From NCBI RefSeq assembly GCF_030734285.1, contig NZ_CP132294.1, forward strand, positions 2,170,001-2,234,000: a DNA stretch of 64,000 bases, in the 5' to 3' direction. This document shows positions 42,318-50,884 of the stretch, piece after piece. A program made the translations under genes and the position numbers. This DNA comes from Natronococcus sp. AD-5. GTDB lineage: Archaea; Halobacteriota; Halobacteria; Halobacteriales; Natrialbaceae. Within the stretch, counting starts at the first letter, position 1. The number at the start of each line of letters is the position of its first letter. The notes beneath the pieces are model-generated. The model was not told the DNA's origin. It was given only the letters and a program-made list of their open reading frames with translations, and made no database searches.

Positions 42318-43553
42318 ATGAGCGGGCAACGGGCAGCGGCGGAACCGTACACCACGCGGTTCGAGACGGAAGTGGCGGCGATCGACGGCCGACAGGTCTG
42401 GCTCGAGACGAGTTACTTCTACGGCGAGAGCGGCGGCCAGCCGGCCGACCGCGGCACCGTCGGCGATCACGAGGTCGTCGACGTCCGGTTGGTCGACGGC
42501 GATCCGGTTCACGTCCTCGCCGAGGAGCCGTCGTTCGGCGCGGGCCGAAACGTGCTCTGTTCGGTCGACTGGTCGTTCCGGATGTACTGTATGCGCGCCC
42601 ACACCGCCAGCCACGTCCTCTACGGCGCCGGTCGGCGGCTCCTCGAAGACCTCGGCTACGGCGGCTTCGACATCGGTTCGGAGAAGGTCCGGGTCGACCT
42701 CGAGACGAGCACGGGGATCGACGACGAGACGCTGGTCGAACTGGAGGAACTCGTCAACCGGGCGGTCTGGGAATCGCGTCCCGTCTCCTGGGAGGACGTC
42801 GCCGTCGCCGAGGCGCGCGACCGCGAGGAGATCGCGTTCAACGACGCGACCGAGGACGGCGCGTTCCAGGAGGGCCGAGTCCGGATCGTCACCGTCGGCG
42901 GCGAGAACGATAACGGCACCGCGACGGCGAACAGCGCCGACGATTCGCGGAAGCCGTGGGACGTCGCCGCCTGTGGCGGCACCCACGTCCGCAACACGCG
43001 CGAGATCGGCCCGGTAACCATCCTCGGCCGGTCGAACCCCGGCGAGGGGCTGACCCGGGTCGAGTTCGCCGTCGGGCCGCGCGCCATCGACCGCCGCGGC
43101 GTCGAAAAGCGCGTCGCGTTCGACGCGAGTCGGGCGCTCGGCGCGCCGCTCGAGTCGGTCGCCGACGAAGTGGATCGTCTTCGAGACGAGCGGGACGAAC
43201 TCGCCGACGCGGTCCAGTCGCTTCGGCGGGAACTCGTCGACGCGCGACTCGAGCGGGCGGAGCCGTTCGAGCGCGAGAGCGAGGAGTGGCTCGCGACGAC
43301 GGTCGACGGCGTCGAGTCGAACGAGGCGGCGGAGATCGCGGCGGACGCCGCGGGCGAACTGGCCGACGTCGTCGTACTCGTCGGTCGCGATACTCCCTAT
43401 GCGGCCGTAGCCGCGAACGGGACCGTGGCCGCCGACGCGGTCATCGAGGAGTTGACGAGCGAGTTCGGCGGCGGTGGCGGCGGCTCGGAACGCGTCGCGC
43501 AGGCGGGCGGGTTCGACGCCGCGGCGGGCGACGTCATCGCGGCGCTGAAGTGA
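42318..43553 (+). CDS. alaX: Alanyl-tRNA editing protein, AlaX-L type
   Basis: 411 aa from ATG 42318. It hydrolyses mischarged Ser- or Gly-tRNA(Ala) in trans. A beta-barrel domain (YFYGESGGQPADRGTVG) leads to the editing site: H95 and H99 in HTASH, C219 and H223 in CGGTHV, which together bind zinc. A C-terminal coiled coil (about 295-330) and a DHHA1-like domain ending GGGGGSERVAQAGG are as in the long AlaX form and AlaRS. A 20-residue acidic Asn/Asp/Ser insertion sits just before CGGTHV. Confidence 0.92.
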   Translation: MSGQRAAAEPYTTRFETEVAAIDGRQVWLETSYFYGESGGQPADRGTVGDHEVVDVRLVDGDPVHVLAEEPSFGAGRNVLCSVDWSFRMYCMRAHTASHVLYGAGRRLLEDLGYGGFDIGSEKVRVDLETSTGIDDETLVELEELVNRAVWESRPVSWEDVAVAEARDREEIAFNDATEDGAFQEGRVRIVTVGGENDNGTATANSADDSRKPWDVAACGGTHVRNTREIGPVTILGRSNPGEGLTRVEFAVGPRAIDRRGVEKRVAFDASRALGAPLESVADEVDRLRDERDELADAVQSLRRELVDARLERAEPFERESEEWLATTVDGVESNEAAEIAADAAGELADVVVLVGRDTPYAAVAANGTVAADAVIEELTSEFGGGGGGSERVAQAGGFDAAAGDVIAALK

Positions 43554-43652
43554 CGTTTCAGGATCGACGATGGTGTCCGGAATAGAACGGATCGCCCCCG
43601 AAGTTGAGTGTTGGTGGCCTATCATTTTTGACCGCGGGATCATAGAGTACCT

Positions 43653-44138
43653 ATGGTTTCCGAATCCCTCCGGACGGAGTTTCCGAACGTCGCAGCGGGA
43701 GCGAAACAGGTGTCGGTAGCCGACCTCGGGACTGAGTCGACGTTCGTCGTCCTCCTGTTGATGCAGAGTTCCGGCAGCGGCACGTGTCGTCAGCAGGCCC
43801 GCGAGATCGCGGCCGAGTACGACGAGTTCCAGCGGCGAAGCGCGACGGTGGCGGCGATCGTTCCGGGGAGCGCCCCGAAAGTTCGATCCTGGCGGCGACT
43901 CGTCGACCCCCCGTTTCCGGTTCTGGCGGACCGCGAGGCCGCCCTCGCCGAAGCGTTCTACCAGCGAACCCAGTACGGCCGCCTCGGACGGTTCGTCTCG
44001 TCGATCGGACGGATGCCGATGACGGTCGTCCTGGACTACCGCGACGGCGGGCCCTCGGTCGGGTACACCTACGAGGGTGCGACGTCGTTCGATCGACCGC
44101 CAGTTCGCGAACTCCTCGCCGCTCTCGACGAGAGTTAG
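43653..44138 (+). CDS. Peroxiredoxin-like (AhpC/TSA-type) protein, Cys context unusual
   Basis: 161 aa. Thioredoxin fold with STFVVLLLMQSSGSGTCRQQ, where one Cys stands at the position of the peroxidatic Cys but the usual PxxxTxxC is replaced by SSGSGTCRQQ. A downstream FPVLADREAALAEAF and YTYEGATSFDRPP are AhpC/TSA-like. No second Cys is visible, so it would act as a 1-Cys type if it is active. Substrate unknown. Confidence 0.7.
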   Translation: MVSESLRTEFPNVAAGAKQVSVADLGTESTFVVLLLMQSSGSGTCRQQAREIAAEYDEFQRRSATVAAIVPGSAPKVRSWRRLVDPPFPVLADREAALAEAFYQRTQYGRLGRFVSSIGRMPMTVVLDYRDGGPSVGYTYEGATSFDRPPVRELLAALDES

Positions 44139-44287
44139 GAGTGATCGGTCGGTTGCGCTCCGGCGACGGTACCGGTGGACGCCTCGCTCGAGAAACGGGC
44201 GGCCGCGTCCATCGCTCGAGTCGCCGCGATCTGTTGTAGCCGCTGACAACTTACTCGGCACCTAGTGAATTTATTATGAATGGAAAA

Positions 44288-44298
44288 CAACTATGTAA
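44288..44298 (+). repeat. Direct repeat copy 1, CAACTATGTAA
   Basis: Exact 11-bp copy, 104 bp upstream of copy 2. It lies in the AT-rich region before gntP. Confidence 0.75.
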
Positions 44299-44391
44299 GT
44301 AGTAATAAAACCATGAACGATTGTAGTTATTCAGCGGATTTTATCCATGCTATAGCCAGGTGATTCGAATGTTTGTCCACGAATTGTTCCG

Positions 44392-44402
44392 CAACTATGT
44401 AA
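44392..44402 (+). repeat. Direct repeat copy 2, CAACTATGTAA
   Basis: Exact 11-bp copy placed directly before the TATA box, where a bound regulator would block or assist TFB/TBP binding. Confidence 0.75.
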
Positions 44403-44404
44403 TT

Positions 44405-44413
44405 AAATATAAA
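44405..44413 (+). promoter_or_regulatory. TATA box of gntP
   Basis: AAATATAAA centred about 26 bp before ATG 44435, the haloarchaeal leaderless spacing. Confidence 0.6.
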
Positions 44414-44434
44414 ACGTTCTGGTAGAATTGTGTG

Positions 44435-45871
44435 ATGGTAGTACATATGGCAATCGCCAATCCACTGATCGTATTCGCGATCGGGTTAATTGCGGTTATC
44501 GCATTGCTCGTCTGGTTGAAGTTACCTGCAGTCCTCGGACTTCTCATCGCCTCGCTGATCGTCGGTGCTGCGACGGCCGCGGTACCGTTCGGCGAGGTAC
44601 CTGCGGAGATCGCCGGCGGATTCGGTGAGACGATGACGGGGATCGGTATCCCCATCCTGATGGCAGCAGTCATCGGAAAAGGGATGATGGAGAGCGGCGC
44701 CGCGGAACGCATCGTCCGCTCGTTTCAATCCACGACCGGTGAAGACAAGTCGTATCTCGCGCTGTGGGGGAGCAGTAGCGCGCTGTCGATTCCGGTGTTC
44801 TTCGACAACGTCTTCTACCTGATGGCCCCCCTGGCCCGCTCGATGCGAGCCCGTACGGGGCGTGACTACGCGCTCTTCCTCTGCGTGGTCGGCGCCGGTG
44901 CGGCGACGACCCACGTCTTCGTCCCGCCGACGCCGGGACCGCTCGCGGTGGCGGCGGAACTCGGTGACGCGGTCGATCTCGGCGCGATGATGATCGGCGG
45001 CGTCCTCATCGCGATCCCGACCGCGGCCGTCTCCGGAATTCTTTACGGCAGGTGGATCAACGCTCGTCTCGACGACATTCCGCTGCGGGAGACGATGGGA
45101 TCGACCGCGGAGGAGGTTCACGAACTGGCGGAACGATCCACCAGCGAACTGCCAGGGATGTTCGAGGCCTCGCTCCCGATCATCCTCGCTGTCGTTCTGG
45201 TCGCGACGAACACCACCGTCAACTTCCTAGTCGACCTGGCCGAAGAAGGCGTTGCACCCTTCGACGCGATAGGGGGTGCACTCGAGTCGTTCGTTCCGGT
45301 CGCGAGTTTCCTCGGCGATCCGAACTTCGCGCTGACCGCGGCCGCGCTCGCCGCCGCCGTGACGTACCTGCGCGTTCGCGCGATCAGCCAGGACGTCTGG
45401 ACGGACGAACTCGTCGAGTCGCTTAAGAGCGGCGCCCACATCGCCGCGATCACCTCCGCCGGCGGCGCGTTCGGCGGCCTGCTCGCGGCCTCCGGCATCG
45501 GCGAGTACATCACGGACCTGGTCGCCGTCGGCGCCGGCGGGGGCGTGACCGTACTTGTCTCGGCGTGGCTCATCGCCGCCGCGATCCGGATCGCACAGGG
45601 ATCCGCCACCGTCGCGATGATCACCACCGCGGGGATCATGGCGCCACAGGTGCCCGACCTGGCCGTTCATCCCGTCTACCTCGCGCTCATCATCGGCGCC
45701 GGCGGAAACATCTGTTCGTGGTTCAACGACAGCGGCTTCTGGCTGGTCAAAGAGATCGGCGGACTCACGCAGACGGAAACGGTCAAGATCTGGACGGCGC
45801 TGACGACGATCATCTCGGTGACGGCGTTCATCATCATCGTCACCGTCTCGTCGATCATGCCGCTGGCCTGA
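44435..45871 (+). CDS. gntP: GntP-family gluconate:H+ symporter
   Basis: 478 aa from ATG 44435; ATG 44447 is a second option. The upstream start agrees with the TATA spacing. About 12-14 helices. Family features: FFDNVFYLMAPLARSM, THVFVPPTPGPLAVAAELG, AGGAFGGLLAASGIGEYI, QGSATVAMITTAGIMAP and NICSWFNDSGFWLVKEIGGL. It should import gluconate or related sugar acids. First gene of the sugar-acid module: KDPG aldolase, glucose dehydrogenase and gluconate dehydratase lie downstream on the same strand. Confidence 0.92.
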   Translation: MVVHMAIANPLIVFAIGLIAVIALLVWLKLPAVLGLLIASLIVGAATAAVPFGEVPAEIAGGFGETMTGIGIPILMAAVIGKGMMESGAAERIVRSFQSTTGEDKSYLALWGSSSALSIPVFFDNVFYLMAPLARSMRARTGRDYALFLCVVGAGAATTHVFVPPTPGPLAVAAELGDAVDLGAMMIGGVLIAIPTAAVSGILYGRWINARLDDIPLRETMGSTAEEVHELAERSTSELPGMFEASLPIILAVVLVATNTTVNFLVDLAEEGVAPFDAIGGALESFVPVASFLGDPNFALTAAALAAAVTYLRVRAISQDVWTDELVESLKSGAHIAAITSAGGAFGGLLAASGIGEYITDLVAVGAGGGVTVLVSAWLIAAAIRIAQGSATVAMITTAGIMAPQVPDLAVHPVYLALIIGAGGNICSWFNDSGFWLVKEIGGLTQTETVKIWTALTTIISVTAFIIIVTVSSIMPLA

Positions 45872-45942
45872 TCGGCACCTACCGTTTCGCCGCCCTTTTC
45901 GCGTCCTTCTCGACGGAATCGTCGCAACTCGAACTCGAGCGC

Positions 45943-46272
45943 GTGTACCGACGGCTACGGAAACGCTCGAAGACGGAACGCCGCGAGTTAACGAGTGAAC
46001 CCGTAATCGATAGTACGGCGCGACGACCGCACCACTACGGGGGCTTTCGCAACGCCGTCATCCAGATCGCACTCCACCGAGCGACGGGGACGCCGATCGA
46101 GGCGACCGTCGCGGGGACGTCGCTCGGCGATAGAGACCTGCCGTCGACGCTGCCGATCGAGAACGCCTTCGAGATTCAGGTCGACGACGAGCGGTACGCG
46201 ATCGGCGGCTCCGGCGCGTTCCTCGAGGACTTCGAAGCCGACTCGGTCGCGATCCGCCCCCTCGAGGAGTGA
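45943..46272 (+). CDS. Unknown protein between gntP and KDPG aldolase
   Basis: 109 aa if translation begins at GTG 45943; the frame is open all the way from the gntP stop, so the start is uncertain. Body: basic helix (RRLRKRSKTERRELTSEP), then TARRPHHYGGFRNAVIQIAL, GTSLGDRDLPSTLPIENAFE and a strand-rich acidic end. No family recognised. Typical haloarchaeal codon use. It is inside the sugar-acid module and may be co-transcribed with gntP, so a role in sugar-acid metabolism or its control is possible. Confidence 0.55.
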   Translation: MYRRLRKRSKTERRELTSEPVIDSTARRPHHYGGFRNAVIQIALHRATGTPIEATVAGTSLGDRDLPSTLPIENAFEIQVDDERYAIGGSGAFLEDFEADSVAIRPLEE

Positions 46273-46396
46273 AACGTTCTTGGGAGGGCGCGGCGAACGT
46301 CGTCGTGATGAACTACCGCTTGCTATCGACGGAACCGCGCGGGGACGCGCCGGGCGCGTCGGATCGCTCGACAGACCCCCGTACGCGGAGGGGACG

Positions 46397-47050
46397 ATGA
46401 CTGAGGCCGACGCGATCGAGGATCGCATCGTCGAGAACGGCGTCCTCGCCGTGCTTCGCGGCGTCGACGAGGAGCGGATCGTCCCGGTCGCTCGAGCGAT
46501 GTACGAGGCGGGCGTCGGCGGGCTCGAGGTCACGGCCGACGACGCGCGAACGTACGAGAAGATCGCCGCGATCGACCGCGAGCTCGCGGACACCGACGCG
46601 GTCGTCGGCGCGGGGACCGTCCTCGACGCCGCGACCGCCCAGTCGGTGATCGACGCGGGCGCGGAGTTCGTCGTCTCGCCGCACACCGACGCCGAGGTCG
46701 TCCGCGTCTGCAACCGCCACGGCGTGCTCTCGGCGCCCGGCGTTATGACGCCGACGGAGGCCGTCACCGCGATCGACGCCGGCGCGGACGTCCTCAAGAT
46801 GTTCCCCGCCTCGACGGTCGGACCGGGGCACATCGGCGCGCTGCGGGGGCCGCTGGGCGACGTCCCCGTCATCCCGACCGGCGGCGTCGACCGCGACAAC
46901 GTCGGCGACTACTTCGACGCGGGCGCCGTCGCCGTCGGCGCCGGGAGCTCGCTCGTCGACTACGAGGCGATCGCCGACGGCGATATGGACCGGGTCCGCG
47001 AGACCGCCGCGGCGTTCGTCGAGGCCGTCGAGGACGCGCGGGACGCGTAG
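46397..47050 (+). CDS. KDPG/KHG aldolase, bacterial (Eda) type
   Basis: 217 aa from ATG 46397. Class I aldolase that cleaves 2-keto-3-deoxy-6-phosphogluconate to pyruvate and glyceraldehyde-3-phosphate. Conserved residues: E44 in GGLEVT, G-A-G-T-V in VGAGTVLD, SPHTD, APGVMTPTE, the Schiff-base K134 in VLKMFPAS, and IPTGGVD. Length matches Eda. Central enzyme of the Entner-Doudoroff route here; unlike the dihydrodipicolinate-synthase-type KdgA common in archaea, this is the bacterial family. Confidence 0.93.
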   Translation: MTEADAIEDRIVENGVLAVLRGVDEERIVPVARAMYEAGVGGLEVTADDARTYEKIAAIDRELADTDAVVGAGTVLDAATAQSVIDAGAEFVVSPHTDAEVVRVCNRHGVLSAPGVMTPTEAVTAIDAGADVLKMFPASTVGPGHIGALRGPLGDVPVIPTGGVDRDNVGDYFDAGAVAVGAGSSLVDYEAIADGDMDRVRETAAAFVEAVEDARDA

Positions 47051-47293
47051 CGCCCGGATCGAAGCCGAAACCCGCGAATCGACCGCCTGCCCGATGCGGT
47101 CGTTCGAGTACCTTCTCGCGGTCGAGGTACCTATCGGCGCCCTCGAGCCGACGGCGCGTCTCACCGACCCCGTTTCCGGGTAGCGACCGCGGCGCCGCTC
47201 CGGGTTCGATCGTTACTGGCGCTCGTCGATCGCCGTTCAAATGTTTACTACAGATAGGGTAATCTTTTGTTCCTCGGGCCCCACCGTCGAACC

Positions 47294-48361
47294 ATGAAGG
47301 CGATCGCAGTCGAACCGGGAGCCGGCGAACCGACCCTCGTCGAGAAACCCTGTCCCGAACCGGCGCGGGGAGAAGCGCTCGTCCGCACGCTTCGCGTCGG
47401 CGTCGACGGAACCGACCACGAGGTTATCGCGGGCAACCACGGCGACCTCCCGGCCGGTGCGGACCGACTCGTCCTCGGCCACGAGGCCGTCGGCGTCGTC
47501 GAGGACCCGAACGGCACCGACCTCGAGGAGGGGCAGTACGTCGTTCCGACCGTCCGCCGGCCGCCCAACGGCACCAACGAGTACTTCGAGCGCGGCGAAC
47601 CGGACATGGCCCCCGAGGGCGAGTACGTCGAGCGCGGCATCGTCGGGGAACACGGCTTCATGACGGAGTACTTCACCAGTCCCGCCGAGTACCTCGTCCC
47701 GATCCCCGAGCGCCTCGCCTCCCTCGGTTTCCTCGTCGAACCGATCAGCATCTCCGAGAAGGCCATCGAACACGCCGTCGCCTCCCGCTCCGCGTTCGAG
47801 TGGAAGCCGGAATCGGCGCTCGTACTCGGCAACGGCTCGCTCGGCCTGCTGACGCTCGCGATGTTCGAGTCGGTGCTCGAACTCGACCGCACGTACTGTC
47901 TCGGGCGGCGCAGCCGACCCGACCCGTCGATCGACATCATCGACGAACTCGGCTCGACGTACGTCGACTCGCGCGAGACGCCGGTCCCCGAGATTCCCGA
48001 CGAGTACGAGTCCGTTGACATCGTCTACGAGGCGACCGGCTACGCCAAGCACGCGTTCGAAACCGTCGACGCGCTCGCGCCGAACGGCGTCGGCGTCCTG
48101 CTCGGCGTCCCCGAACCCTGGTCGTTCGAGATCGACGGCGGGCGGCTCCACCAGGAGTTCGTCCTCCACAACAAGGCGCTGGTCGGCTCGGTCAACTCCC
48201 ACCGCGGCCACTTCGAGGCGGCCATCGACACGCTCGAGGGGTTGCCGACGTGGGTGACCGACGACCTCGTCACCGGCGTCTACGGGCTCGACGAGTACCG
48301 AGCCGCGTTCGAGGCCGGCGACGACGTCGTGAAGACGGCGGTCGAGTTCTCGTCGGTGTGA
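47294..48361 (+). CDS. gdh: Glucose 1-dehydrogenase (zinc MDR family)
   Basis: 355 aa from ATG 47294. Oxidises glucose to gluconolactone with NAD(P). Matches haloarchaeal Gdh throughout: first-shell zinc residues D38 (VGVDGTDHEVI), H63 and E64 (LVLGHEAVG) and E149 (FLVEPISISEK). The dinucleotide-binding fold contains VLGNGSLGLLTLAMF; later patches are GVPEPWSFEIDGG and LVGSVNSHRGHF. The structural zinc lobe lacks its Cys set, as in haloarchaeal Gdh. Feeds gluconate to the dehydratase downstream. Confidence 0.95.
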   Translation: MKAIAVEPGAGEPTLVEKPCPEPARGEALVRTLRVGVDGTDHEVIAGNHGDLPAGADRLVLGHEAVGVVEDPNGTDLEEGQYVVPTVRRPPNGTNEYFERGEPDMAPEGEYVERGIVGEHGFMTEYFTSPAEYLVPIPERLASLGFLVEPISISEKAIEHAVASRSAFEWKPESALVLGNGSLGLLTLAMFESVLELDRTYCLGRRSRPDPSIDIIDELGSTYVDSRETPVPEIPDEYESVDIVYEATGYAKHAFETVDALAPNGVGVLLGVPEPWSFEIDGGRLHQEFVLHNKALVGSVNSHRGHFEAAIDTLEGLPTWVTDDLVTGVYGLDEYRAAFEAGDDVVKTAVEFSSV

Positions 48362-48453
48362 GCGACGGTTCGACGTTCTGCTACCGTTCGTCAGCCGGAC
48401 AGTGCGTCTCGAGATAGAAACTATTACACGATCACGAGTGACTGTTATTCACC

Positions 48454-49692
48454 ATGGGAGTCGATTACTCGAAGCTACACGACCCGAACGCGGAGTATAC
48501 GATGCGAGAGCTCTCCGCTGAAACGATGGGCGTCACGGGCGAGCGCGGCGGCGGCCGCGACGTCGAGATCACGGACGTCCAGACGACGATGATCGACGGC
48601 AACTTCCCCTGGACGCTCGTCCGCGTCTACACGGACGCCGGCATCGTCGGCACCGGGGAAGCCTACTGGGGCGCCGGCGCGCCCGAACTCATCGAGCGGA
48701 TGACGCCCTTCCTGCGGGGCGAGAACCCGCTCGACATCGACCGCCTCACCGAGCACCTCGTCCAGAAGATGTCCGGCGAGGGCTCGATCGGCGGCGTTAC
48801 CGTGACCGCGATTTCGGGCATCGAGGTCGCGCTGCACGACCTCGCGGGCAAGATCCTCGACGTCCCCGCCTACCAGCTGCTCGGCGGCAAGTACCGCGAC
48901 GAGGTTCGCGTCTACTGCGACTGTCACACCGAAGAGGAGGCCGACCCGGTGGCCTGCGCCGACGAGGCGGAACGCGTCGTCGAGGAGCTCGGCTACGACG
49001 CCCTGAAGTTCGACTTGGACGTCCCCTCCGGCCACGAGAAGGACCGCGCCAACCGGCACCTGCGCGCGCCGGAGATCGAGCACAAGGCCAGCATCGTCGA
49101 GGCCGTCACCGAGCGCGTCGGCTCGCGCGCGGACGTCGCCTTCGACTGTCACTGGACGTTCTCGGGCGGCAGCGGCAAGCGCCTCGCACAGCGCCTCGAG
49201 GAGTACGACGTCTGGTGGCTCGAGGACCCCGTCCCGCCGGAGAACCACGACGTCCAGCGCGAGGTCACCCAGAGCACCTCGACGCCGATTACGGTCGGCG
49301 AGAACGTCTACCGCAAGCACGGCCAGCGCCGCCTGATCGAGGAACAGGCCGTCGACATCATCGCGCCCGACATGCCCAAGGTGGGCGGGATGCGCGAGAC
49401 CCGGAAGATCGCCGACCTCGCGGACATGTACTACGTCCCGGTCGCGATGCACAACGTCGCCTCGCCGATCGCGACGATGGGCGGCGCCCACGTCGCGACG
49501 GCCATCCCGAACTCGCTGGCCGTCGAGTACCACTCCTACGAACTCGGCTGGTGGGAGGACCTCGTCGAAGAGGACGTCATCGAGGACGGCTACATCGAGA
49601 TCCCCGAGGAACCCGGCCTCGGCGTCACGCTCGACATGGACGTCGTCGAAGAGCACATGGTCGAGGGCGAAGAGCTCTTCGACGAGGCGTAA
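48454..49692 (+). CDS. gad: D-gluconate dehydratase, enolase superfamily
   Basis: 412 aa. Mandelate-racemase-like subgroup. N-terminal capping domain to about 160, then a TIM-barrel with the Lys in ALKFDLDVP, metal ligands Asp in VAFDCHW, Glu in WLEDPVPPE, Glu in ITVGENVYRK, and a late His in AMHNVASPIATMGG. Converts gluconate to 2-keto-3-deoxygluconate. The genes around it (gdh, KDPG aldolase, gntP) support the assignment to gluconate rather than galactonate. An AT-rich AACTATTA lies about 32 bp upstream of the start. Confidence 0.92.
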   Translation: MGVDYSKLHDPNAEYTMRELSAETMGVTGERGGGRDVEITDVQTTMIDGNFPWTLVRVYTDAGIVGTGEAYWGAGAPELIERMTPFLRGENPLDIDRLTEHLVQKMSGEGSIGGVTVTAISGIEVALHDLAGKILDVPAYQLLGGKYRDEVRVYCDCHTEEEADPVACADEAERVVEELGYDALKFDLDVPSGHEKDRANRHLRAPEIEHKASIVEAVTERVGSRADVAFDCHWTFSGGSGKRLAQRLEEYDVWWLEDPVPPENHDVQREVTQSTSTPITVGENVYRKHGQRRLIEEQAVDIIAPDMPKVGGMRETRKIADLADMYYVPVAMHNVASPIATMGGAHVATAIPNSLAVEYHSYELGWWEDLVEEDVIEDGYIEIPEEPGLGVTLDMDVVEEHMVEGEELFDEA

Positions 49693-49777
49693 TCCTCGTC
49701 GTGCTCGCTGCGCTTTTTCGGCAGTAACTGGGAACCGTCCCGGTTGTCCCGCTCGGGCGCCGGTCCTCTCGAGTCGG

Positions 49778-50884
49778 TCACTTCGAACCGGTCAAGCGGC
49801 GTAATCGCGGGAGACGGATTTCGCCGGGCTCGTAGAGCCCCAGTTCGAGGATCGCGAGATAGACGGCCAGGGAGCCGAAGAAGGTCGCGGGGGTCAGTAC
49901 GAGATGCCACAGGAACGTGTCCGTAACCGCGTATCCCGTCGCGTCTAGCGCTTTACCCGCATGCTCGAGGACGTATAACACTGCGGGGTGGACGACGTAG
50001 ATGCCGACGGCGTAGTTACCCCACGACGGTAACGAGGTGTGCTTTCCGAGATCCGGTCGCGAGAGGAGAAAGAGGAACAACGAGAGCGTGAACAGCGCCG
50101 TCGCGATCGTGTAACTCGCCGTGTAGACGCCGTCCGCGAACGTTTCGCCCGGGATCACGTAGCCCAGGACGTATCGTTCTCCGAGGTGGACCGCGCCGAA
50201 GAGGAGGGTCGCAGCGAGGTAGCGCGTGCTTCGCTCCGGACGCGGCCGCCAGTCGGCGGCGCAGAGGGCGTAGCCGAGGCTCGTGTAAAAGAACCCGAAG
50301 AACAGCGCGTCTCTGACCTCGAACGGGACGCCCACGAACATCGTGTAGCTCGCCCCCAGGAGACCGACGACGTGAAAGCCGAGCGAGACCGGCAGCAGGT
50401 ACTCCGTCCCGTCGACCCGCACGAAGAGGTACACGAAGACGAGCGAAAACGCGAGCGCGGGGAGGAACCACAGGATCACGGATATCGAGTTCCCGTAGTA
50501 GAGCAGTTCGGCCGGGGAAACGAACTCGGCCAGTTCGCTCACGACGCTGCTCGCGACGTCCTCGTTTTTGGCGCTTGCGCGAACGGCAGTTCCCGCGAGA
50601 AACACCGGGAACGCGAGCAGCAGTCCGACCGCGTAGAGCGAGGCGATGGTGGCAACTCGCCGAACGAGATAGGCGGTCGGATCGCGACGAGTGATTTTGA
50701 GCGCGAAAAAGTACCCGGACGCGATGAAAAAGAACGGGACCGCGAACCGCGCGGCCGTTTCCGTTACGAAATTCACCATATTGCCGTAGCCGTTGAGTCC
50801 CCTGAACGGGTCCGTGTGGATCGTGACGACGAACGCCATCGCGATGATTCGCATCGAGTCGATACTGTAGATTCGATCAGCCAT
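49778..50884 (-). CDS. Acyltransferase-3 family integral membrane protein
   Basis: 368 aa with ten or so helices. N-terminal SIDSMRIIAMAFVVTIHTDP carries the family R/H pattern (the His is the proposed acyl-transfer residue), then AVPFFFIASGYFFALK and late GNYAVGIYVVHPAVLYVLE. These proteins add acyl groups to sugars, polysaccharides or lipids at the membrane. No polysaccharide gene cluster is adjacent; the substrate is unknown. Confidence 0.87.
   Translation of the reverse strand: MADRIYSIDSMRIIAMAFVVTIHTDPFRGLNGYGNMVNFVTETAARFAVPFFFIASGYFFALKITRRDPTAYLVRRVATIASLYAVGLLLAFPVFLAGTAVRASAKNEDVASSVVSELAEFVSPAELLYYGNSISVILWFLPALAFSLVFVYLFVRVDGTEYLLPVSLGFHVVGLLGASYTMFVGVPFEVRDALFFGFFYTSLGYALCAADWRPRPERSTRYLAATLLFGAVHLGERYVLGYVIPGETFADGVYTASYTIATALFTLSLFLFLLSRPDLGKHTSLPSWGNYAVGIYVVHPAVLYVLEHAGKALDATGYAVTDTFLWHLVLTPATFFGSLAVYLAILELGLYEPGEIRLPRLRRLTGSK

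Follow-up and report, generated by a model that had tools for sequence, protein, structure and literature searches.

A direct repeat upstream of gntP in Natronococcus sp. AD-5: a probable local coincidence beside candidate operators at near-constant distance from the TATA box

Introduction

Why should one 11-bp word stand twice in front of a permease gene, once beside its TATA box and once about a hundred base pairs further upstream? The question arises upstream of gntP in a 64,000-nucleotide stretch of the Natronococcus sp. AD-5 genome (NZ_CP132294.1, positions 2,170,001 to 2,234,000), which was analysed as a whole and is called the window here. The word CAACTATGTAA matches exactly at 44288-44298 and 44392-44402 of the plus strand, 104 bp from start to start, and its second copy runs directly into TTAAATATAAAAC (44403-44415), which is gntP's TATA region. 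A sequence-only reading had placed the two copies in just this way and had taken them for an operator pair, possibly joined by DNA looping. The likeness of the copies extends to 24 nt at 83%, in a region whose GC content, 33-38%, is below the 60-75% of its flanks. In the literature searched we found nothing on a gntP promoter or on gluconate control in Natronococcus.

Comparison with relatives suggests another explanation, which we consider probable on balance. The region would be the promoter of gntP, the gene that heads a sugar-acid cluster of Entner-Doudoroff type in a Natronococcus-like haloarchaeon, and would carry two candidate operators, O1 and O2, upstream of a transcription factor B recognition element (BRE) and TATA box. 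The repeat would be a local coincidence of two elements, the BRE/TATA side in copy 2 and the left part of a degenerate palindrome, O2, in copy 1.

Results

Conservation upstream of gntP

A gntP this close (E 1e-180) occurs in 15 of 125 genomes of the family. Invariant columns were counted over 225 bp in six genomes of the genus, leaving out Natrialba and Halostagnicola; Natronorubrum and more distant gntP loci were covered by pattern scan rather than footprinting. Against a background of 36/225 invariant columns for the whole upstream region, the BRE/TATA of the proximal promoter (44395..44414, plus strand; TATA core AATATAA at 44406-44412) keeps 12 of 20, and O1, the TTACTCG box TTACTCGGCACCTAGTGAA (44251..44269, plus strand), keeps 8 of 19. 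The TATA box proposed earlier is a conserved one, and the region holds up as the regulatory region of gntP. The 11-mer itself is poorly kept, with 1/11 invariant columns in copy 1, which starts at the left end of O2, and 3/11 in copy 2, whose 3' part overlaps the BRE region. The word therefore halves a palindrome at one place and has letters in common with the BRE at the other. By this comparison, the conserved BRE/TATA explains copy 2, and copy 1 forms the left part of a palindrome with a right half, GTAGT, that the 11-mer does not reach.

A palindrome at near-constant distance from the TATA box

In the window, O2 (ACTATGTAAGTAGT, 44290..44303, no strand assigned) is one mismatch from ACTAC-N4-GTAGT. 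The intact palindrome stands at the same place in Natronococcus pandeyae (genome G004; ACTACTCGAGTAGT), in a further genome of the genus, G007 (ACTACTATAGTAGT), and in Halostagnicola (ACTACGGTTGTAGT). O2 lies 116 bp from the TATA box in the window, 116 in G004, 113 in G007, 114 in G008, 113 in G001 and 113 in Halostagnicola; these six are the genomes counted, G002 (which has no O2) and Natrialba being left out. The neighbouring interval, from the stop codon of the redoxin-like gene to O2, measures 152, 145, 122, 148, 127 and 115 bp in the same order. The spacer between O2 and the BRE/TATA (44304..44397, no strand assigned) is 94 bp long in the window and 91-94 bp across the six genomes. Its sequence is not conserved: pairwise identity is 0.39-0.52, beside 0.42-0.46 for shuffled partners; over the initial 300 bases of gntP it is 0.80-0.88 (pairs without G001). 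The spacer has thus kept its length and not its sequence in six genomes, in two of which O2 is degraded, and this was the unexpected result of the analysis.

The distance from O1 to the TATA box is likewise 150-155 bp across six genus genomes. The comparison suggests a layout of O1, about 38 bp, O2, about 114 bp and TATA, at near-constant distances, and we predict O1 and O2 as the likely operators. A dimeric regulator on O2 might then act on the promoter from about 11 helical turns away. The site-promoter distance (113-116 bp in six genomes) is kept independently of the sequence between, which is compatible with DNA looping. That O2 does act from a set distance, with a spacer of about 92 bp selected for length and not for sequence, through phased looping or a fixed nucleoprotein assembly, is a proposal that we regard as unlikely.

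As a regulon motif the palindrome was rejected. In the 5.3-Mb N. pandeyae genome the gntP site is the sole perfect ACTAC-N4-GTAGT, against three matches to a reversed control; the corresponding numbers are 1 and 2 in the window genome, G000 (its one match, C2:935466, is not at gntP), 6 (one at gntP) and 2 in G007, 2 and 2 in G008, 1 and 3 in G001, and 1 and 0 in G002. The O2 palindrome is therefore at best specific to gntP.

How unusual the repeat is

When the local 201 bp (35% GC) were shuffled by dinucleotides, an exact non-overlapping repeat of at least 11 nt arose in 14 of 2000 trials; of 1276 segments of that length taken across the 64 kb, 57 contain one. The repeat is therefore locally uncommon (about 0.7%) yet expected somewhere when the whole window is scanned by eye, and so moderately above chance. 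The earlier judgement that such a pair is unlikely by chance stands for the immediate surroundings; it does not carry over to the window. The complete genome (5.17 Mb, two contigs) holds two exact copies, both of them here, and its 19 places with at most one mismatch equal the 19 of a reversed-pattern control; the word does not recur at other sugar genes. Nor is it shared with relatives, being present in none of their gntP loci that were fetched (L010-L066). With two genomic copies, no counterpart in relatives and poorly conserved columns, the 11-mer was rejected as a regulon motif. A 16-codon frame lies behind copy 1, from 44314.

The gene cluster and the trmB remnant

Read rightward, the genes encode an AlaX-like editing protein, a redoxin-like protein, GntP, a TrmB remnant, a 2-keto-3-deoxy-6-phosphogluconate (KDPG) aldolase, a glucose dehydrogenase-type enzyme and a mandelate racemase-type sugar-acid dehydratase. 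The GntP-family permease gene (44447..45871, plus strand; PF02447, E 3.6e-87) begins at an ATG at 44447 that aligns with the ATG of the relatives. On the same strand follow kdpgA, for a KDPG/KHG aldolase (46397..47050; PF01081, and TIGR01182 above its cut-off), gdh, for the glucose dehydrogenase-type enzyme (47294..48361; PF16912, E 6e-96), and gad, for a gluconate/galactonate dehydratase-like protein (48454..49692; PF13378, and NF040790 at E 5e-63, below its cut-off). A search for known RNA elements over 43500-49800 gave two matches far below gathering scores, both outside the gntP upstream region.

Between gntP and kdpgA lies what is left of a trmB gene (45997..46272, plus strand), the C-terminal sugar-binding part (PF11495, E 2.1e-10; 74% identical to the N. 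pandeyae protein over residues 244-353), which also lacks an internal stretch; relatives have an intact gene upstream of kdpgA. The order gntP, intact trmB, kdpgA, gdh, gad is found in G004, G001 and G007; in G008 and G002 the cluster lacks trmB. The intact protein has 353 residues in N. pandeyae, with a DNA-binding (PF01978) and a sugar-binding (PF11495) domain, and 361 in Natrialba asiatica. Since the cluster's own trmB has decayed, control in this strain would come from a regulator encoded elsewhere.

Two further features of the relatives' clusters were seen. N. pandeyae carries a minus-strand gene of 688 codons between gntP and trmB (L026:5588-7654), absent from the window, whose product looks glucoamylase-like by eye and has no Pfam match at 0.001. 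The gntP of G001 (L014, G001:C43) is interrupted by a short inverted repeat containing N, which we take to resemble a sequencing-adaptor end; the interruption is therefore probably an assembly artefact.

Related boxes before gdh and gad

Boxes resembling O1 stand before two other genes of the cluster. The gdh box TTACTACAGATAGGGTAA (47245..47262, plus strand) has 15 of 18 columns invariant in eight genomes (upstream background 49/160), and the gad box TTACACGATCACGAGTGA (48424..48441, plus strand) has 16 of 18 in seven (37/90), Natrialba and Halostagnicola again being left out of both counts. O1 and both boxes fit a loose dyad, TTACTMS-N4-SKAGTAA, and they alone reach at least 12 of its 14 letters in the 64 kb, where shuffles gave a mean of 0.48 sites and at most 3; O2 reaches 11 of 14.

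The boxes loosely recall haloarchaeal TrmB sites. The haloarchaeal TrmB motif is given as TACT-N7-8-GAGTA in PMC4158304, and according to Table 2 of PMC10817205 the promoters bound by TrmB in Haloarcula hispanica include those of gdh, gapII, ppsA and a sugar transporter. No exact match to TACT-N7-8-GAGTA occurs within the window's cluster; scored by reading against ACTC-N6-GAGT, O1 and the gad box reach 7/8 and the gdh box 6/8. Within the genus, among known TrmB targets, the full 8/8 motif stands in four of four gapII promoters and three of four ppsA promoters, the fourth ppsA scoring 7/8, as would be expected for TrmB; before fbp and a second ppsA gene no such motif was found. The conserved boxes, the motif at gapII and ppsA and the binding of gdh in Har. 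hispanica together make TrmB, with modest confidence, the first candidate regulator for O1 and the gdh and gad boxes. On this view a regulator that senses sugar and recognises half-sites of the TACT/AGTA type would sit on these three boxes and be released when sugar is present; most likely it would be the core TrmB (G000:C1:1004964), as in Halobacterium and Haloarcula.

Genome-wide, TTACT-N8-RGTRA and the joint dyad were rejected as motifs, showing no excess over a reversed control in G000; elsewhere the dyad has 65 sites to 40 in the control in G004, 62 to 46 in G007 and 52 to 38 in G008. The strongest palindromes outside the cluster adjoin small membrane-protein-like frames, not sugar genes, as far as reading of the frames goes. 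TTACTC-N6-GAGTAA palindromes were seen at L115:1501 and L107:1501 (both in G000) and at L111:1501 (G004), again not at sugar genes by reading; two of these places adjoin small membrane-protein-like frames of one kind, with a metX-like frame nearby.

A TrmB paralogue at 40% identity is found in G000 and G008, in a cluster with ABC transporter genes and a glycosidase-like gene. The TrmB paralogue at G000:C1:1828239 has both the DNA-binding and the sugar-binding domain by Pfam. In both genomes a perfect palindrome, GTTGAAAAAATTCAAC, precedes the glycosidase-like gene (L148:13595 and L149:13468) and is likely to be the operator of the paralogue; the joint dyad does not occur around this cluster at 12 or more of 14 letters. 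Upstream of trmB itself, GTTGAAAAATG.ATTC is kept in all five genus genomes with an intact gene (L099, L100, L101, L104 and L105) and is a possible autoregulatory site.

Discussion

The explanation that we favour, a gntP promoter with O1, O2 and BRE/TATA and a coincidental 11-mer repeat, has several observations to answer. O2 is degraded in G001 and G008, where we placed it by our own judgement, missing in G002 and one letter off in the window, and a pattern scan found none in Natrialba, which has the same cluster. O1 is one of 31 sites in 64 kb that score 7/8 for ACTC-N6-GAGT. The joint dyad was derived from the three sites that it describes and is not enriched in the window genome (78 sites, 81 in the control). 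In favour of the explanation, a TrmB of the 28-30% class, a candidate orthologue of Halobacterium salinarum VNG_1451C, is present in nine of nine genus genomes.

The regulator could be a different one. O1 and the gdh and gad boxes, or O2, may belong to GfcR or to an IclR-type activator instead of TrmB, which we think somewhat unlikely. No binding motif for these regulators was found in the literature searched, and TrmB agrees with both the TACT/AGTA half-sites and the binding at the gdh promoter (PMC4158304 and PMC10817205). For O2 the candidates include the cluster's own TrmB, another TrmB, GfcR and an IclR-type protein.

The first of these candidates would make O2 an operator decaying where its regulator was lost. 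The palindrome is perfect in G004 and G007, which have trmB; the three genomes that lack an intact trmB have it with one letter changed (the window), in degraded form (G008) or not at all (G002). Against this, G001 has trmB and a degraded O2, and Natrialba asiatica has trmB and no O2. The trmB promoter in the five genomes with the intact gene carries a different word, the GTTGAAAAATG.ATTC.. site, which is like GTTGAAAAAATTCAAC. Moreover, the recognition helix of the paralogue resembles that of the cluster's TrmB, and its standing by the different palindrome GTTGAAAAAATTCAAC counts against O2 as a site of the latter. We regard this origin of O2 as quite unlikely.

Just as doubtful is an upstream tandem promoter made of copy 1 and the AT-rich tail AATAAAAC, in which case the 24-nt likeness would be that of promoter to promoter. 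The likeness does span a TATA-like tail in both copies, and TAAAATACG (G004), TAAATACG (G008) and TTAAATAG (G001) stand directly behind O2, but G007 and G002 have no clear TATA at that place, and TATA-like words are common in DNA so rich in AT.

Least probable is the operator pair proposed in the sequence-only reading, one regulator on both 11-mers with the 104 bp (about ten helical turns) possibly looped: the rarity of the pair in local shuffles, the lack of another exact copy in the genome and a distance that would lie near whole turns of B-DNA speak for it, but the gntP loci fetched from relatives lack the word, its columns are scarcely conserved, and no relative shows a comparable direct repeat at that spacing: their best 24-mers, differently spaced, match in 13-17 of 24 positions, and the pair here matches in 20 of 24. 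Two exact copies acting as a pair are thus not supported; what survives of the earlier operator proposal is a candidate operator, O2, at the place of copy 1, with neither the 11-mer as its unit nor the two copies as partners.

Haloferax volcanii offers a parallel for the genes themselves, since a study of that organism reportedly deals with the haloarchaeal semi-phosphorylative Entner-Doudoroff genes gdh, gad and kdpgA. The enzyme set is the same by family; the difference is that here the genes form one cluster headed by gntP, with trmB alongside in relatives.

On our explanation of the promoter, the closest known operators are those of VNG_1451C and of Har. hispanica TrmB. The likeness lies in a TAC..N7..AGT frame in O1 and the gad box, with two departures each, in the full ACTC-N6-GAGT at gapII and ppsA of this genus, and in gdh, a bound target in Har. 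hispanica (PMC10817205) and a gene of the present cluster. In contrast, none of the cluster's sites is an exact match to the published motif, O1 is the more distant, about 150 bp ahead of the TATA box as against about 80 bp from the start for the gapII and ppsA sites, and gntP is not among the TrmB targets in the excerpted text of PMC10817205. O2 of G004 and G007 (TACT-N2-AGTA) shares a palindrome of TACT/AGTA half-sites with the Pyrococcus/Thermococcus TrmB operator at malE (TACT-N3-AGTA; excerpted text of PMC4158304), but the malE operator has a spacing of 3 and overlaps the BRE/TATA, whereas O2 has a spacing of 2 and lies about 114 bp upstream.

The region is mostly ordinary in kind, and its fixed spacing is the interesting part. 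A repeat found by eye is replaced by testable candidate operators for the transporter gene gntP. If the fixed spacing is functional, the relatives would provide a natural set of archaeal promoters whose spacers drift in sequence at a fixed length, and archaeal action at a range of about 11 helical turns would become directly testable.
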